From NCBI GenBank assembly GCA_029245525.1, contig JAQWPD010000018.1, forward strand, positions 1-32,624: a stretch of 32,624 bases of DNA. The letters are read 5' to 3'. Shown here piece by piece: positions 16,781-24,278 of this stretch. The notes under the pieces were generated by a model. The model made no database searches and was not told the DNA's origin. It saw nothing but the letters and a program-made list of their open reading frames with translations. Source of the stretch: Gammaproteobacteria bacterium. Lineage in GTDB: Bacteria > Pseudomonadota > Gammaproteobacteria > Steroidobacterales > GCA-2729495. The number at the start of each line of letters is the position of its first letter. Position 1 is the stretch's first letter. The position numbers were made by a program, and so were the translations under genes.

Positions 16781-17362
16781 GTGCTAGCTAATACCAATGA
16801 GTCTTGGGGCGTCGTATCACGAAGCTTTCATTGGTTGACCTTTGGATTAGTGCTTATTCAAATTCCGTTAGGCTTCTACATGGTTGACGCCTATGAGGTC
16901 TATAAGATTGACTATGCCGATGATACCGTTTTCATGCGCGCATCTCTGGCCCACAATACTCTGGGATTTTTGTTTTTACTGCTGGTGCTTGCTCGTTTGA
17001 GTTGGCGATTGAAGCACAGTGTTCCTGCCATGTCTGTTGCCTTGTCGATTTATCAGCGAGCACTCGCGCGACTCACTCATTGGGCTTTTTATTTGTTGAT
17101 GATAGTTTATCCCTTATCGGGCTGGGCGGCCTTGTCTGCATATCAATTCGATTTTCCGATATTCTTTTTTGGTTGGGATTCTGTTCCTGGCATAGTGCCC
17201 TCAGTAAAGGAAGGAGCACCCTTTGATTACGAATTCTTCGCTGATATCCATAAATTGTGCTGGCAGTTTGGCGCAGGCTTATTAGGCCTTCATGTGATAG
17301 CTGCGCTCTGGCACGGTTTTGTGCGGCGCGATGGCGTTCTCGAGCGAATGCTGCGTGGATGA
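16781..17362 (+). CDS. Cytochrome b561-family protein
   Basis: A 193-residue inner-membrane dihaem cytochrome b561 (bacterial CybB type) that moves electrons between quinols and a periplasmic or membrane partner, often in superoxide scavenging. Four hydrophobic helices carry the likely haem-ligand histidines: H17 (FHWL), H58 (AHNTLG), H100 (LTHWAFY) and H157/H171 (DIHKL, GLHVIAALWHGF). Start is the GTG at 16781 with GGAG 8 bases upstream; no in-frame ATG fits. It lies 33 bases after the FrnE-like gene and overlaps the flavoprotein gene. Its likely partners in the operon are the flavoprotein and the exported lipoproteins. Confidence 0.9.
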   Translation: MLANTNESWGVVSRSFHWLTFGLVLIQIPLGFYMVDAYEVYKIDYADDTVFMRASLAHNTLGFLFLLLVLARLSWRLKHSVPAMSVALSIYQRALARLTHWAFYLLMIVYPLSGWAALSAYQFDFPIFFFGWDSVPGIVPSVKEGAPFDYEFFADIHKLCWQFGAGLLGLHVIAALWHGFVRRDGVLERMLRG

Positions 17363-18334: not shown

Positions 18335-20002
18335 CTAGACTTGGCGCCAATTATCCAGCAGTTGACCAAGTTGCTGGTCGACCTGATCCATCACGCCAGG
18401 CGCCCCTTGTTCCAATAACGCGCGGTTGGTTTTAGGGAACTCTGCACGTCCGCCTTCCGCTGCAAGCTGCCGTGTGGCATCGATAACAATTTTGCTGGTC
18501 CGGTTCGGTTCGACCTGGCTGGGATCGGTCTGCAGGCCCCAGGTGTCTTCGATTACCGCGGAAGCGGGGTAGGGCTGCCAACGCGAGCCCATCGCAAATA
18601 ACACCTGTGACTTGTCGAGTATGTTGATATCACTGTCCACAACAATTACGACTTTCGCAATGGGATTTCGGCGCGCAACAGCCATACCGGCATTCAGCCC
18701 CTGACCGGCTTCTGTTTTCTCAATGCTCACAACGATCACGCCCATCATGTCGTGGAAGTTGGTGTACTCGATGAACCCCGGAATACTTTTGGCAAGACTA
18801 ATGCTGTAAAGGGCATCCATCGGTGCGGTTACCATGCCGCGCTGCATGCCAGTAAATGCATTCATGATCCATGGGTTTTTACGGTGCGTTATAGAGGTGA
18901 TTTCAATGACGTAGTTCTTTTCTTTATAAGGGCCGAGGTAGCCGAACATTTCGCCAAATGGCCCTTCCGGGGCACTTTGATCGAGACGCACAAGACCTTC
19001 AATAATCATTTCTGCATGGGCCGGAATAGGCATGTCATTGGTTTCTGACTTGACCACTTCAATGGCTTTGCCACGCATACCGCCGGCCACAGCCAGTTCA
19101 TTGATTGGAATTGGTTTGTTCGGGCGTGGTGCAACCCGTGACCCACTGACCATCCATATATAAGGGTCCTGACCGATAACAATGGATATTGGCGCGGTGT
19201 TTTCGCCGCGTGCAATGGCTCGCTTCATCATTTTGTCGGCCGTTTGATTGGGCTCCGGATTAAAACCAAGGCTGCGCGGCCCGTTGATCATACAGCGATA
19301 GGTCCCGAAGTTAAGGCCCATTTCAGGGTCAGAAGTAAACACCGAACCGGTATTGACATAGCGGCCCCCATCGGCCGGATTGGTTTTGATAAATGCGAAT
19401 TTGGTGATGTCGATTTGATCGCCCGTAAGCTTGATCTCTTTACAAGGTGCAGTGGCGGCATCAACCTCAATGGGCGCGATCTCCGGATAGCGTCCGCCAT
19501 TCTCGATAAGCATTTCTTTCATGTATTCTCGGGCATTCCGATAGGTGGCAAAGTGATCGCCTGGCACCGGTTTTAAGCCCCAGATAATGGCATCGGTATT
19601 CCAATGGCCCTGATAATTTGCGTACACAGGACCGTCGACCCACTGCCCGTCAATTTTAATGCGATTGAACTTCATCGCTGGCGCACCGTACATGGAGTAT
19701 TTGTCGGTGGCTTTAAAGAACATCCCGGTCATCAAGTATTTGTCCTGATCGACCTCGTCAACTTCAAGCAGAAGGCCATTGGCATCAAGGGCGGCTATGT
19801 AGTCCCGCACGCTGTCGAATGGCGCTTGAGGTGCACTCTCGCTGGCGGCTGTCAGCCCCGCTTTGTTGCTGTTGCCGGTATCACAGCCAGCAAGGCTTAA
19901 TGCTGCAAGACCTGTTGCTGAGCCCAACACAGTGCGTCGAGACAGTGTGGTTTGTGTTTGCGATGATTCCTCTATTGCTTTTTCGGTAGTTTTTTCGTTC
20001 AT
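18335..20002 (-). CDS. UbiD-family decarboxylase with Tat lipoprotein signal
   Basis: A 555-residue UbiD-family protein. UbiD enzymes use prenylated FMN to add or remove a carboxyl group on aromatic, heteroaromatic or unsaturated acids. The catalytic residues appear intact: R236 (FGTYR) and the EGPFGE motif (E346, E351), matching the Arg-Glu-Glu set of fungal Fdc1. The N-terminus is unusual: SRR (21-23) in LSRRTVLGSATGLAALSLAGC, a twin-arginine signal with a lipobox Cys at 40, so it should be exported folded and lipid-anchored. I start at the ATG at 20002, with GGAG about 6 bases before it; an ORF extension of 33 residues upstream lacks features. No ubiX-type flavin prenyltransferase is in the window. 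It stands alone, convergent with the redox operon, which might supply or accept electrons. Confidence 0.9.
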   Translation of the reverse strand: MNEKTTEKAIEESSQTQTTLSRRTVLGSATGLAALSLAGCDTGNSNKAGLTAASESAPQAPFDSVRDYIAALDANGLLLEVDEVDQDKYLMTGMFFKATDKYSMYGAPAMKFNRIKIDGQWVDGPVYANYQGHWNTDAIIWGLKPVPGDHFATYRNAREYMKEMLIENGGRYPEIAPIEVDAATAPCKEIKLTGDQIDITKFAFIKTNPADGGRYVNTGSVFTSDPEMGLNFGTYRCMINGPRSLGFNPEPNQTADKMMKRAIARGENTAPISIVIGQDPYIWMVSGSRVAPRPNKPIPINELAVAGGMRGKAIEVVKSETNDMPIPAHAEMIIEGLVRLDQSAPEGPFGEMFGYLGPYKEKNYVIEITSITHRKNPWIMNAFTGMQRGMVTAPMDALYSISLAKSIPGFIEYTNFHDMMGVIVVSIEKTEAGQGLNAGMAVARRNPIAKVVIVVDSDINILDKSQVLFAMGSRWQPYPASAVIEDTWGLQTDPSQVEPNRTSKIVIDATRQLAAEGGRAEFPKTNRALLEQGAPGVMDQVDQQLGQLLDNWRQV

Positions 20003-20168
20003 GACCCGCTCCGCTTTCAAGGATTTACTGACTCTACAGTAGTCCCGATATTGCCAATTTGCACCTTCTGCAGGTAACTTCGATGCAGAGGCTGTCCGCA
20101 TTGCGAATACGGCCTATGCTTGCGGCGATGTAGGTTGACGGTTACCCTTTAATATTAAGGAGGTTTTT

Positions 20169-21848: not shown

Positions 21849-22955
21849 CTACGATTTTGCCGGCACCAATGGCACCGTATCGAGAACCCAGCTTTTAGAT
21901 GTGCGACGTCCCGGTGAAGGGATGGCCAGGGCTGAGTCTTGATTGTTCTTACCGAGAGCGTGCATGTCAATCCGCCAGCCCTTTTCTTCCCACGTTTTCA
22001 GGTATTGACGATAACGCACAACTGACTCATCGCCAGGCAGCAAAAGTTCTTTGGTTAGCGTATCGGGTGTATTGCGGGGCCGTAGGTGCTCGATTACATT
22101 CTTATCCTCAATGGCTATGCCCATTAAGGTTTTATTGATGTATTCATCGGCACTTTCTTCCAGCGTGTTGTTTCGCGCATTAAGGAAGAAAATACGTGTC
22201 CGATCTTTACTAATCGGCGCTTCAAAAAAGTATTGAATGAAACTGATTTCATTCATCAAGTGAATACCGGTCATCAAATGGTTGGGACCGATATGCCATG
22301 AACCCGCATGCAAGTCTTTAGCGCTGTCATCGCTATCTGTAATTTTCTTGCGGTTTTCAGACTGCGTGTAAGCGCCGAACTTCGCATCGAACCAAGCGCC
22401 CCATTTCAGGTCTTTGAGTTCGATGTCGTTCTGATCAAGAGCCGGAGCGCCTTGATTGGGATGGACAAATTCGTTGTGCAGCGGATCCATCCCGTTTTCC
22501 ACGGAACGCTCGTAGTAAGCATCTATTTCAAAAACCACAGGCCCTGTGCAGCGCCAGCCTTCCTGATCCCATTCTTCAACGAGCGGAACTGGCGGCCGTT
22601 CGCTTTCGGGGGCATCGCCTAAGAAAGCAAAAACTACACCGTAGGCCTCGTGGACTGGATACGCATCAACCTTTGCGCGCCCAGGAATTTTGCCATCTTT
22701 AATTTGCGGAATTTTGATGCACTTTCCTGAGCCATCAAATGACCAGCCATGATAAGCGCAGGTAACGCCGTCGCCTTCAATCTTGCCTTGGCTCAGTGCG
22801 CCACCACGATGGATGCAGGTATCACTGATAACCTGAGCTGCGCCAGCGGAATCACGGAAGGTGGCAAGTCGCACGCCGAGTAATTCGACCAATTTAGGTG
22901 CGTCACTAGTGAGCTCTTCACTGGTGCAAATGGGATACCAGAAATTGATATACAT
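21849..22955 (-). CDS. Rieske-type non-haem iron oxygenase, alpha subunit
   Basis: A 368-residue terminal oxygenase. The Rieske [2Fe-2S] site is CIHRGG (C47, H49) and CAYHGW (C66, H69). The catalytic iron site is DPLHNEFVH, with bridging D157 and ligands H160 and H165. It would add oxygen to, or demethylate or desaturate, an aromatic or sterol-like substrate, using electrons from a reductase not found here. Start is the ATG at 22955 (MYINFWYPI), which fits the family's N-terminus; the ribosome site is weak. It lies downstream of the luciferase-like monooxygenase gene on the same strand after a 222-base gap that shows no gene. The substrate is unknown; the neighbouring acid symporter hints at a carboxylate. 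Confidence 0.93.
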   Translation of the reverse strand: MYINFWYPICTSEELTSDAPKLVELLGVRLATFRDSAGAAQVISDTCIHRGGALSQGKIEGDGVTCAYHGWSFDGSGKCIKIPQIKDGKIPGRAKVDAYPVHEAYGVVFAFLGDAPESERPPVPLVEEWDQEGWRCTGPVVFEIDAYYERSVENGMDPLHNEFVHPNQGAPALDQNDIELKDLKWGAWFDAKFGAYTQSENRKKITDSDDSAKDLHAGSWHIGPNHLMTGIHLMNEISFIQYFFEAPISKDRTRIFFLNARNNTLEESADEYINKTLMGIAIEDKNVIEHLRPRNTPDTLTKELLLPGDESVVRYRQYLKTWEEKGWRIDMHALGKNNQDSALAIPSPGRRTSKSWVLDTVPLVPAKS

Positions 22956-23177
22956 GATGAAATTCAGCCTTTTTATTTTTTGTGTTGATTTCTTGCTGGG
23001 ACCAATCGCAGACACTAAGGCGTGGTGGGTCTTGCAGGGAATTTAGCGATACTAGCAAAAGTCGGCAACGGGCGAGTCACTTTTTACCGTCTTGCAGCGA
23101 GAATAATAGTGTTTCAAGGGCAGTCTGGAGCCACTGCAAGTTTGCAAGCCCTTTATCCATTTGGCTTTCGAGCTGTC

Positions 23178-24263
23178 CTAGCGCAGGGCTGGCAGTACGT
23201 GCTCACCGACAATTTTCAGGCTATCCCATGGCTTGTCATGGAAACGCAGCGCCAGTTCTGTGAGCCCACTCGAAGCAAAGCTTTTGTAACGTTGGATTTC
23301 GCGGTCAATATTACTGATATCACCGGCCGATGCCATGCCATCAACTAAGCGATTGGCCAGTTCATCAGGTATGTTATTGATATGCCCTTGTTTCATTAAA
23401 AATGCTTTTCTGAAGTCCATGACGCTATCCATAACCAGATTAGCTTCGGCCTCATCATGACAGAATTTTTCAATCTGCTCGCGCTCTCTGCCAACAATTC
23501 CACCGCGCACATACAGCTCACGGCGTCCTTCCCAGTACGATGCCTCGCGGTCTTCATTGATGTGAAAAGCCCAGAAATTGCCGATACGAAAGTCCGCGGG
23601 TTTGTCATCCCGCTTGCTGAAGCCTACAGCGAGGTTGTCCATGGCCAAGGGCATCATGTCAGGGGTGTAGTCACTGAGCTGGATCCCATCAGCATATTGC
23701 CCACCCATACGAATCATCATCGGACCAGAAGAGCAGCTGTAGAGAAGGGGGCCATCATGAGTGGCCCAGTTCATTTGGAAGGGCCGCGTAACATCAAAGA
23801 TGCCTGCTTCATAACCCATGCAAACTTCGCCACTGCGGGCCAGATTTAAAATCTCCAGCGCTTCACGAACGCCGAGTACCCGCCGATCGGGCATACGGGT
23901 GCCTTTAACGGGGTGTTTGCCCGGCCAGATCGGTCCGCCGGCACGGGCACGCCAGCCCAATGCACCAATTAGAGCGCCACCACCACCGACGGCTATCATT
24001 GCCCGACCCTTAGCTACTTCATTAAGGCTAAGCAGTGCATTAGCCATTTTTAGCGGATGCATTTCCCAGGGGCAGACCGCCAGTGCGCCGAGAATTATTT
24101 TTGATGTTGCCATTGCTGCCGGTACCAGCGAAACAAAGGGATCCCAGTTGCTATGATAATTGGAGGCCCAGAGCGCCCTTACGCCCATTTTCTCAGCAGT
24201 CACTGCTATTTCTGCTAATTCTGCGGGAGTTACACTCGGTTCAATAATGACATCTATATCCAT
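23178..24263 (-). CDS. Luciferase-like flavin-dependent monooxygenase
   Basis: A 361-residue protein of the bacterial luciferase-like monooxygenase (LLM) superfamily, a TIM barrel using reduced FMN (or F420 in some branches). Family traits: IDVIIEPSVTPAELAEIAVTAEKMGVRALWASNYHSNWDPF at the start, ILGALAVCPWEMHPLKMAN, GRAMIAVGGGG and YADGIQLSDYTPD. No chemistry can be assigned; members hydroxylate, desulfonate or cleave alkane, sulfur and heterocyclic substrates. I start at the ATG at 24263; a TTG two codons earlier is possible, and neither has a good ribosome site. It is upstream of the Rieske gene and divergent from the symporter, sharing a 153-base promoter region with a 9-base direct repeat. 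Confidence 0.88.
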   Translation of the reverse strand: MDIDVIIEPSVTPAELAEIAVTAEKMGVRALWASNYHSNWDPFVSLVPAAMATSKIILGALAVCPWEMHPLKMANALLSLNEVAKGRAMIAVGGGGALIGALGWRARAGGPIWPGKHPVKGTRMPDRRVLGVREALEILNLARSGEVCMGYEAGIFDVTRPFQMNWATHDGPLLYSCSSGPMMIRMGGQYADGIQLSDYTPDMMPLAMDNLAVGFSKRDDKPADFRIGNFWAFHINEDREASYWEGRRELYVRGGIVGREREQIEKFCHDEAEANLVMDSVMDFRKAFLMKQGHINNIPDELANRLVDGMASAGDISNIDREIQRYKSFASSGLTELALRFHDKPWDSLKIVGEHVLPALR

Positions 24264-24278
24264 GGTCAAGAATCATAG

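Follow-up and report, generated by a model that had tools for sequence, protein, structure and literature searches.

Gene content of the locus and identity of the UbiD-family protein

The window, by which we mean the whole 32,624-nucleotide stretch of DNA analysed here from a gammaproteobacterial genome (G000) assembled in 123 contigs, carries on its minus strand a gene of 555 codons plus a stop, read from 20002 to 18335 and encoding a UbiD-family (de)carboxylase of 555 aa (18335..20002) with a predicted twin-arginine lipoprotein signal. Within this protein, a putative Tat signal peptide spans residues 1-39 (19886..20002, minus strand), with the motif SRRTVL at 21-26, and is followed by a predicted mature protein of residues 40-555 (18338..19885, minus strand), in which the UbiD fold begins at about residue 60. 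A cytochrome b561 gene (16781..17362, plus strand) lies 1.0 kb away from the UbiD gene, a Rieske oxygenase gene (Rieske plus VanA_C; 21849..23015, minus strand) 1.7 kb away, a luciferase-like monooxygenase gene (23178..24269, minus strand) 3.1 kb away and a SnoaL-like gene 5.6 kb away; the window also encodes an FMN reductase and a SOUL protein. A separate feature of the window is a short-chain dehydrogenase (PF00106; 13606-14661, plus strand) with SRRRFIAGGGAVVAASSLSGC, a candidate Tat lipoprotein signal on a normally cytosolic cofactor enzyme, which is also present at L077:65-1135.

Profile searches place the window protein in the UbiD family, with 180.9 bits against a cut-off of 23.3 for Pfam PF01977 (UbiD) and 61.5 bits against a cut-off of 24.2 for PF20696 (UbiD_C). 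Among the NCBIfam models, TIGR00148 and VdcC match it best, and since the score for the UbiD subfamily model TIGR00148 (230.9 bits) falls slightly below the cut-off of 244.85, the protein is a divergent member. This assignment is further strengthened by an AlphaFold2 model, built on an alignment of 31 sequences, with a mean pLDDT of 84.6, in which residues 1-51, the segment that holds the predicted signal, are the sole listed segment below 50. Comparison of the model by VIA-align gave Z 41.6 for VdcC (7ae4; residues 60-551, 26% identity over 459 residues), 41.0 for HmfF (6h6v; residues 62-545, 26% identity over 438 residues) and 40.2 for E. coli UbiD (5m1d), and the window protein is accordingly modelled with a UbiD fold across its whole mature chain. 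As to the start of translation, a second in-frame ATG lies further upstream, at 20101; because L014, a relative of 96% identity, has a stop codon 10 codons before its matching ATG, 20002 is taken as the conserved start.

Distribution and phylogeny of signal-bearing UbiDs

When one genome per species was scanned, 33 loci were recovered, in 27 of which an RR motif lies upstream of the core, the others being the truncated L033 and five loci of actinobacterial type (L040-L044), two of them recorded as Bifidobacterium breve, that have a proline-rich N-terminal extension instead of a signal. Within the window's own bacterial family, 37 of 40 genomes hold a UbiD of this kind, signal-bearing or not (E 1e-50), and at least 33 of the 40 encode signal-bearing ones, with up to 6 copies each among the fetched loci; since the 130 family stretches fetched, with contig-edge fragments mostly and one near-duplicate left out, come from a longer list that itself covers part of the matches, these per-genome counts are lower bounds. 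At class level, a strict search (E 1e-185) matched 2 of 369 genomes, both from the window's family, and none of the 367 genomes outside it, at a threshold that signal-bearing UbiDs as distant as L175 or L180 (602 and 592 bits) might not reach. Three signal-bearing loci carry other record names (L019 Thermodesulfobacteriota, L024 Alphaproteobacteria, L045 Steroidobacteraceae), and these three, together with L023 and L038, lie outside the fetched family loci; transfer, wrong binning or wrong names are possible origins of the signal-bearing loci in other-named records. The signal-bearing clade is thus concentrated in one bacterial family and is not restricted to records so named. A scan of viral contigs with the window protein found no relative.

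The fetched stretches and the earlier loci yielded 150 different UbiD frames with a length of 250 aa or more, from which an alignment of 148 rows was prepared (147 frames plus E. coli UbiD, with three short-matching outgroups omitted), along with a tree of 151 rows in which the three were restored as outgroups. On this tree, which was computed with FastTree only, gave long-branch warnings and has some weakly supported inner branches, one clade of 108 with a local support of 100 comprises 105 proteins with a signal, 2 without (L141 and L170) and 1 truncated (L033). Signal-less groups branch off successively outside this clade and leave it nested among them, and 3 changes suffice to explain the signal label, compared with an average of 38.0 after shuffling. 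One nested signal-bearing clade whose nearest relatives are signal-less fits a single gain of predicted export, with up to two losses; for L141 and L170, no signal was seen in the three reading frames upstream, and an assembly error is a possible cause. In the residue comparisons that follow, 105 signal-bearing rows, which include near-copies, are set against 34 signal-less relatives (484-654 bits against a three-protein profile). Neither group includes E. coli UbiD, the minus-strand frame of L007, L205 (two frames), L206, two truncated proteins (L033 and L203) or the signal-less clade members L141 and L170, which together make up the remaining 9 of the 148 rows.

Conservation of the twin-arginine signal

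The N-terminal sequence, TTLSRRTVLGSATGLAALSLAGCDT, has Arg22-Arg23 and Cys40 where the initial annotation placed them; residues 21-40 read SRRTVLGSATGLAALSLAGC, and the next residue is Asp. The stretch RRTVL satisfies the default TatP expression, RR.[FGAVML][LITMVF], as it stands in the excerpted text of PMC1182353, and the h-region that follows the pair is moderately hydrophobic. By the figures in the same excerpt, this expression alone yields 15% false positives among cytoplasmic proteins with RR in their first 30 residues (PMC1182353). Among the proteins compared here, the expression is found in 102 of the 105 signal-bearing rows vs 3 of the 34 signal-less relatives. Of the 107 clade proteins whose N-terminus is intact, 104 pass a lax rule of RR plus a hydrophobic stretch; the background of this rule was 85 of 1052 for ORFs in the neighbourhood and 116 of 5200 for N-termini after shuffling. 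The 105th signal-bearing row, L038, was counted by eye, a Glu in its hydrophobic stretch having defeated the rule.

Scans with the Tat-signal models of Pfam and NCBIfam, which are short, reported no match for the window protein itself. At a lax E of 10, the NCBIfam model matches 10 and the Pfam model 12 of the 31 members of the alignment around the window protein (A3), with best E-values of 0.001 and 0.00027, respectively. In this alignment RR22-23 is near-invariant within an otherwise variable N-terminus, and the pair is kept in homologues of about 44-55% identity to the window protein, while the start codon stands immediately before the core in many signal-less relatives. A chance RR as the source of the signal was rejected in view of the clade-wide conservation together with the background rates, and a signal confined to one gene in view of the paralogues in the genome and the homologues with RR. 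Overall, the predicted Tat export of the window protein is well supported by the conserved pair, the single nested signal-bearing clade and the presence of TatC, Lgt and LspA in the genome. Signal-bearing rows have fewer Cys in the core than signal-less ones (mean 3.5 vs 4.7), which agrees with export and is given little weight, since one clade counts as one event.

Lipobox and predicted location

The predicted lipobox, L37-A-G-C40 (19883..19894, minus strand), is followed by Asp41, and the same LAGC-D is found in L014. Across the clade, a lipobox is present in 35 of the 105 signal-bearing rows, a distribution that takes a minimum of 16 changes on the tree, where shuffled labels need 29.7 on average; less regular boxes include ANAC in the C71 protein of the window's genome and TAAC in L032. 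With the lipobox scattered in this way, lipidation would come and go, while the Tat signal seems to go back to the common ancestor of the clade. The residue after the lipobox Cys in the 35 rows is Ala in 16, Ser in 6, Thr in 5, Glu in 4, Asp in 2, Val in 1 and Gly in 1. Under the classical Lol rule, as worded in the excerpt of PMC5727369, Asp after the lipidated Cys retains a lipoprotein on the inner membrane. With Asp41 after Cys40, the periplasmic face of the inner membrane is therefore a better guess than the cell surface for the window protein, if it is lipidated, and other lipobox-bearing members of the clade could reach the outer membrane.

These results allow the earlier reading of the gene, as a Tat-exported lipoprotein acting at the cell surface, to be revised. 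The twin-arginine signal at 21-26 is present and shared across the clade, and the claim of Tat export gains from this clade-wide signal and from TatC, although the window protein itself is missed by the Tat-signal models. The initial annotation had named conservation of the arginine pair and of the lipobox Cys in close homologues as a check: the pair is kept in 105 of the 107 intact clade members and is lacking in homologues outside the clade and in L141 and L170, while the Cys, found in 35 of 105 rows with its many changes on the tree, had to be given up as a conserved feature. The lipoprotein designation keeps its footing in the LAGC of the window protein and L014 and in the encoded Lgt and LspA, but does not extend to most of the clade, and a cell-surface location was rejected on account of Asp41, a Lol-avoidance signal that predicts the periplasmic face of the inner membrane. 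The main claim of Tat export is thus stronger than before, since it is now clade-wide, and the lipid and cell-surface parts are weaker.

Active site and metal position

In the excerpts of PMC4947166, the cofactor residues of Aspergillus niger Fdc1 are R173, E277, E282 and Q190 and its Mn2+ residues N168, H191, E233 and K391, with residue roles also taken from excerpts of PMC5818171. The window protein carries N231, R236, Q253, E302, E346 and E351, all conserved among relatives, and the spacings within blocks equal those of Fdc1 (N-R 5, R-Q 17, E-E 44, E-E 5), the distance R236-E302 being 6 residues longer than R173-E233 in Fdc1. Specifically, Arg236 (19295..19297, minus strand), the counterpart of the catalytic Arg173, is Arg in 148 of 148 aligned rows, and E346-G-P-F-G-E351 (18950..18967, minus strand) supplies, by sequence and alignment, the counterparts of Glu277 and Glu282. 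Among the 105 signal-bearing rows, R236, E351, N231 and E302 are conserved in all 105, Q253 in 100 and E346 in 99, the remaining 6 having Asn at the E346 position. K450, which is invariant in a small alignment with E. coli UbiD and Arg in 9 of the 105 rows, is the likely counterpart of the metal residue K391.

The metal position departs from this pattern. Thr254 (19241..19243, minus strand), the counterpart by spacing of the Mn2+-binding His191, belongs to a position that is Thr in 78, Ser in 7, Arg in 6, Gly in 5, Ala in 4, Gln in 3, Met in 1, Val in 1 and His in 0 of the 105 signal-bearing rows, vs His in 26, Asp in 6, Asn in 1 and Gly in 1 of the 34 signal-less relatives. The actinobacterial-type L040-L044 have Asp at this position. 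With a sister protein as the query, its His254 aligns with the His of HmfF and VdcC, and with the window protein as the query, the HmfF His falls on Q253 and the 7pda His on T254, so that the counterpart position is certain only to within one residue; His at position 253 occurs in 5 of the 105 signal-bearing rows. As the signal-less pair adjoining the clade (L160 and L183) retains His254, the His was lost and the signal gained on one branch or on adjacent ones, which makes their coincidence a single event rather than a statistical association. We treat this metal site as a variant of the UbiD site and not as grounds to exclude the protein from the family. The site that holds the cofactor metal appears changed, perhaps to suit a metal with oxygen ligands only, and prFMN binding may differ in the signal-bearing set, where no His stands at 254. 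The catalytic Arg and the EGPFGE glutamates recorded in the initial annotation are indeed present, and its expectation of an active enzyme is favoured by the intact Glu-Arg-Glu network and qualified by Thr254.

Genome inventory and gene neighbourhood

The window's genome encodes five UbiDs, three with an RR signal (C60, C71 and C61) and two without (C61 and C84). The C71 protein has SRRTML with the ANAC box, and the signal-bearing C61 protein has GRRNFL and no lipobox Cys; these two share 47 and 49% identity with the window protein, and the two signal-less ones 27 and 23%. A single UbiX gene lies between the signal-bearing and the signal-less UbiD of C61, and TatC, Lgt and LspA are all encoded. 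Across the family, UbiX scores above cut-off in 31 of 40 genomes, comprising 31 of the 37 with such UbiDs, signal-bearing or not, and none of the 3 without (G014, G015 and G023, two of which share a genus); of the 6 UbiD-bearing genomes in which it is missing above cut-off, five are at most 88% complete and G001 is 92% complete. TatC is found in 36 of the 40 and missing from 4, all with such UbiDs, G006 and G016 among them being 92% complete.

No neighbour type recurs in more than 15 of the 101 signal-bearing loci, each locus being typed by one UbiD; L007, which has both kinds, went to the signal-less group, and 3 loci whose typing UbiD was a distant one were assigned to neither. The Rieske type lies within 5 kb of the UbiD in 14 of 101 signal-bearing loci vs 0 of 40 signal-less ones, and the cytochrome b561 type (10 of 101 vs 0 of 40), the luciferase-like type (10 of 101 vs 2 of 40) and the SnoaL-like type (8 of 101 vs 2 of 40) also occur nearby, whereas a CoA-transferase-like type, named by eye, is found at 8 of 40 signal-less and 0 of 101 signal-bearing loci. 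Recurrent neighbours also include DUF1838 and CN hydrolase types, and several neighbour proteins have Tat-like signals too. The neighbours suggest a catabolic role, partly outside the cytoplasm, and point to no single substrate.

Several of these neighbours merit separate mention. DUF1838-type proteins with Tat-like signals lie near signal-bearing UbiDs at L111:7964-8959, L119:6627-7622, L129:8837-9808 and L135:3992-4939, the name resting on a Pfam match for L111 only. A CN-hydrolase-type gene identified by Pfam (L007:15580-16644) directly follows the signal-bearing C61 UbiD, and one from the same BLAST cluster (L008:7917-9020) directly follows the signal-less C84 UbiD of the same genome; a further cluster mate, L177:1634-2797, has DRRRLI as a Tat-like signal and a signal-less UbiD in its neighbourhood, and judging from these sequences CN hydrolase and UbiD partners may be able to swap sides. 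The cluster of the signal-less C61 UbiD (L007:3387-8802) holds what we take by eye to be aconitase/LeuCD-like and isocitrate-lyase-like genes, a set presumably reminiscent of dimethylmaleate/dimethylmalate steps.

Proposed role and alternative explanations

UbiX makes prFMN in the cytoplasm and Tat accepts folded proteins, so loading before export would be the simplest route for an exported UbiD. We accordingly favour, with a probability of about 70%, a reading of the window protein as a Tat-exported, prFMN-loaded (de)carboxylase lipidated at Cys40 on the periplasmic face of the inner membrane, whose export was gained once and whose gene was then duplicated. The protein would fold in the cytoplasm and take up prFMN there, supplied by the single UbiX of the genome, cross the inner membrane in folded form through Tat, be lipidated at Cys40 and retained on the periplasmic face, and there (de)carboxylate an aromatic, heteroaromatic or unsaturated acid, and the lineage would have multiplied the gene into several paralogues after the one gain of export. 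The sequences themselves show the UbiD fold, the Glu-Arg-Glu network, the conserved RR signal, the nested clade and the genes for UbiX, TatC, Lgt and LspA; export as such, lipidation, the inner-membrane position, cofactor loading ahead of export, activity and substrate are inferred. E. coli UbiD and HmfF are hexamers according to the excerpt of PMC7976604, and because a hexamer is large for Tat, the window protein would presumably have to cross as a monomer or dimer. A broader and more tentative proposal, to which we lend less than even credence, is an extracytoplasmic (de)carboxylation pathway based on prFMN: a UbiD ancestor would have acquired a Tat signal a single time, lost the Mn2+ His in that part of the tree and expanded to as many as six exported paralogues in a genome, which would act alongside other Tat-signalled enzymes (DUF1838 and SnoaL-like) with a metal site re-tuned from Mn2+ to metals with oxygen ligands, such as Mg2+ or Ca2+.

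One alternative to this reading accepts export by Tat and holds that the protein is no longer a prFMN enzyme, binding another flavin, another metal or nothing and carrying out a different extracytoplasmic chemistry. The complete absence of His254 from the signal-bearing rows, set against its presence in most signal-less relatives, speaks for it, as Fdc1 His191 binds Mn2+ (excerpts of PMC4947166) and HudA activity peaked with Mn2+ and K+ together (excerpt of PMC7976604), and so do the replacements at the K450 and E346 positions. On the other side stand the near-invariant catalytic Arg and Glu, the fully conserved N231 and E302 and almost fully conserved Q253, the UbiX found in most genomes with such genes, and the consideration that a lost function would not be expected to preserve such conservation across as many as 6 paralogues in one genome. 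On balance we consider this explanation unlikely; nevertheless, the missing Mn2+ His is a reason to test the cofactor instead of assuming prFMN.

The remaining explanations question the export itself. UbiDs are generally taken as cytosolic, which favours a view of the N-terminus as a Sec or membrane-anchor sequence, or as not serving export at all, with the enzyme in the cytoplasm or on the cytoplasmic side of the membrane. The chance RR implied by the 15% TatP false positives in RR-bearing cytoplasmic proteins (excerpt of PMC1182353) and the failure of the Tat models on the window protein are compatible with such a view, but the arginine pair near-invariant in a variable N-terminus, the TatP expression in almost all signal-bearing rows, the many signal-less relatives that start just before the core and the lax-threshold model matches among the 31 relatives argue against it and leave it improbable. 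Still less can be said for translation beginning further in, which would make the RR or the whole signal an annotation artefact: in-frame GTG and TTG codons do stand at codons 25 and 26, directly after the pair, and would leave a Sec-like signal with a lipobox, and a GTG stands at codon 65. Retention of the pair in 105 of 107 clade members requires that it be translated, codon 65 lies within the conserved core (F62, R66), where a start would cut the fold, and the stop in L014 falls shortly upstream of its matching ATG, so that we give this possibility hardly any credence.

If the favoured reading of a Tat-exported, prFMN-loaded UbiD is true, its meaning extends beyond this locus. UbiDs have been studied as intracellular enzymes, since prFMN is synthesised inside the cell and matures in a delicate process; a holo-UbiD would here survive Tat transport, the oxidative maturation of prFMN might finish outside the cytoplasm, and acids would be (de)carboxylated without import. 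The clade would likewise offer a natural series of UbiDs minus one metal ligand, useful for studying the role of the metal, and a source of exported decarboxylases.

Comparison with known systems

Among the literature matches listed, which cover few subscription journals, no prFMN enzyme is reported as a Tat substrate and no UbiD as exported, and in the excerpts of the papers that mention both 'UbiD' and 'twin-arginine' the terms are used in unrelated contexts, in line with the statement of the initial annotation that no such case was known. HmfF (6h6v/6h6x) and VdcC of the vanillate decarboxylase VdcCD (7ae4) share the mature fold, the Arg and the paired Glu with the window protein; in the aligned ranges they have no counterpart of the first 59 to 61 residues of the model, and they carry a His aligned with the sister protein's His254 where the window protein has Thr. 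Fdc1 (4za4 and others), with positions as in the paper excerpts cited above, is matched in the window protein at N168, R173, Q190, E233, E277 and E282, and differs in having His191 where the window protein has Thr254 and in lacking the predicted export signal. The signal-less family sisters (L160, L178 and L183) and the actinobacterial L040-L044 have the same Arg/Glu residues, and the signal-less relatives differ in the absence of a signal, in a 254 position that is mostly His and in partly other neighbours. Tat-exported cofactor enzymes in general combine an RR signal with cytoplasmic cofactor insertion, as is likewise proposed for the window protein. Unreported among the matches listed, the combination is probably a lineage-specific variant of UbiD that joins a known fold to a known export route.
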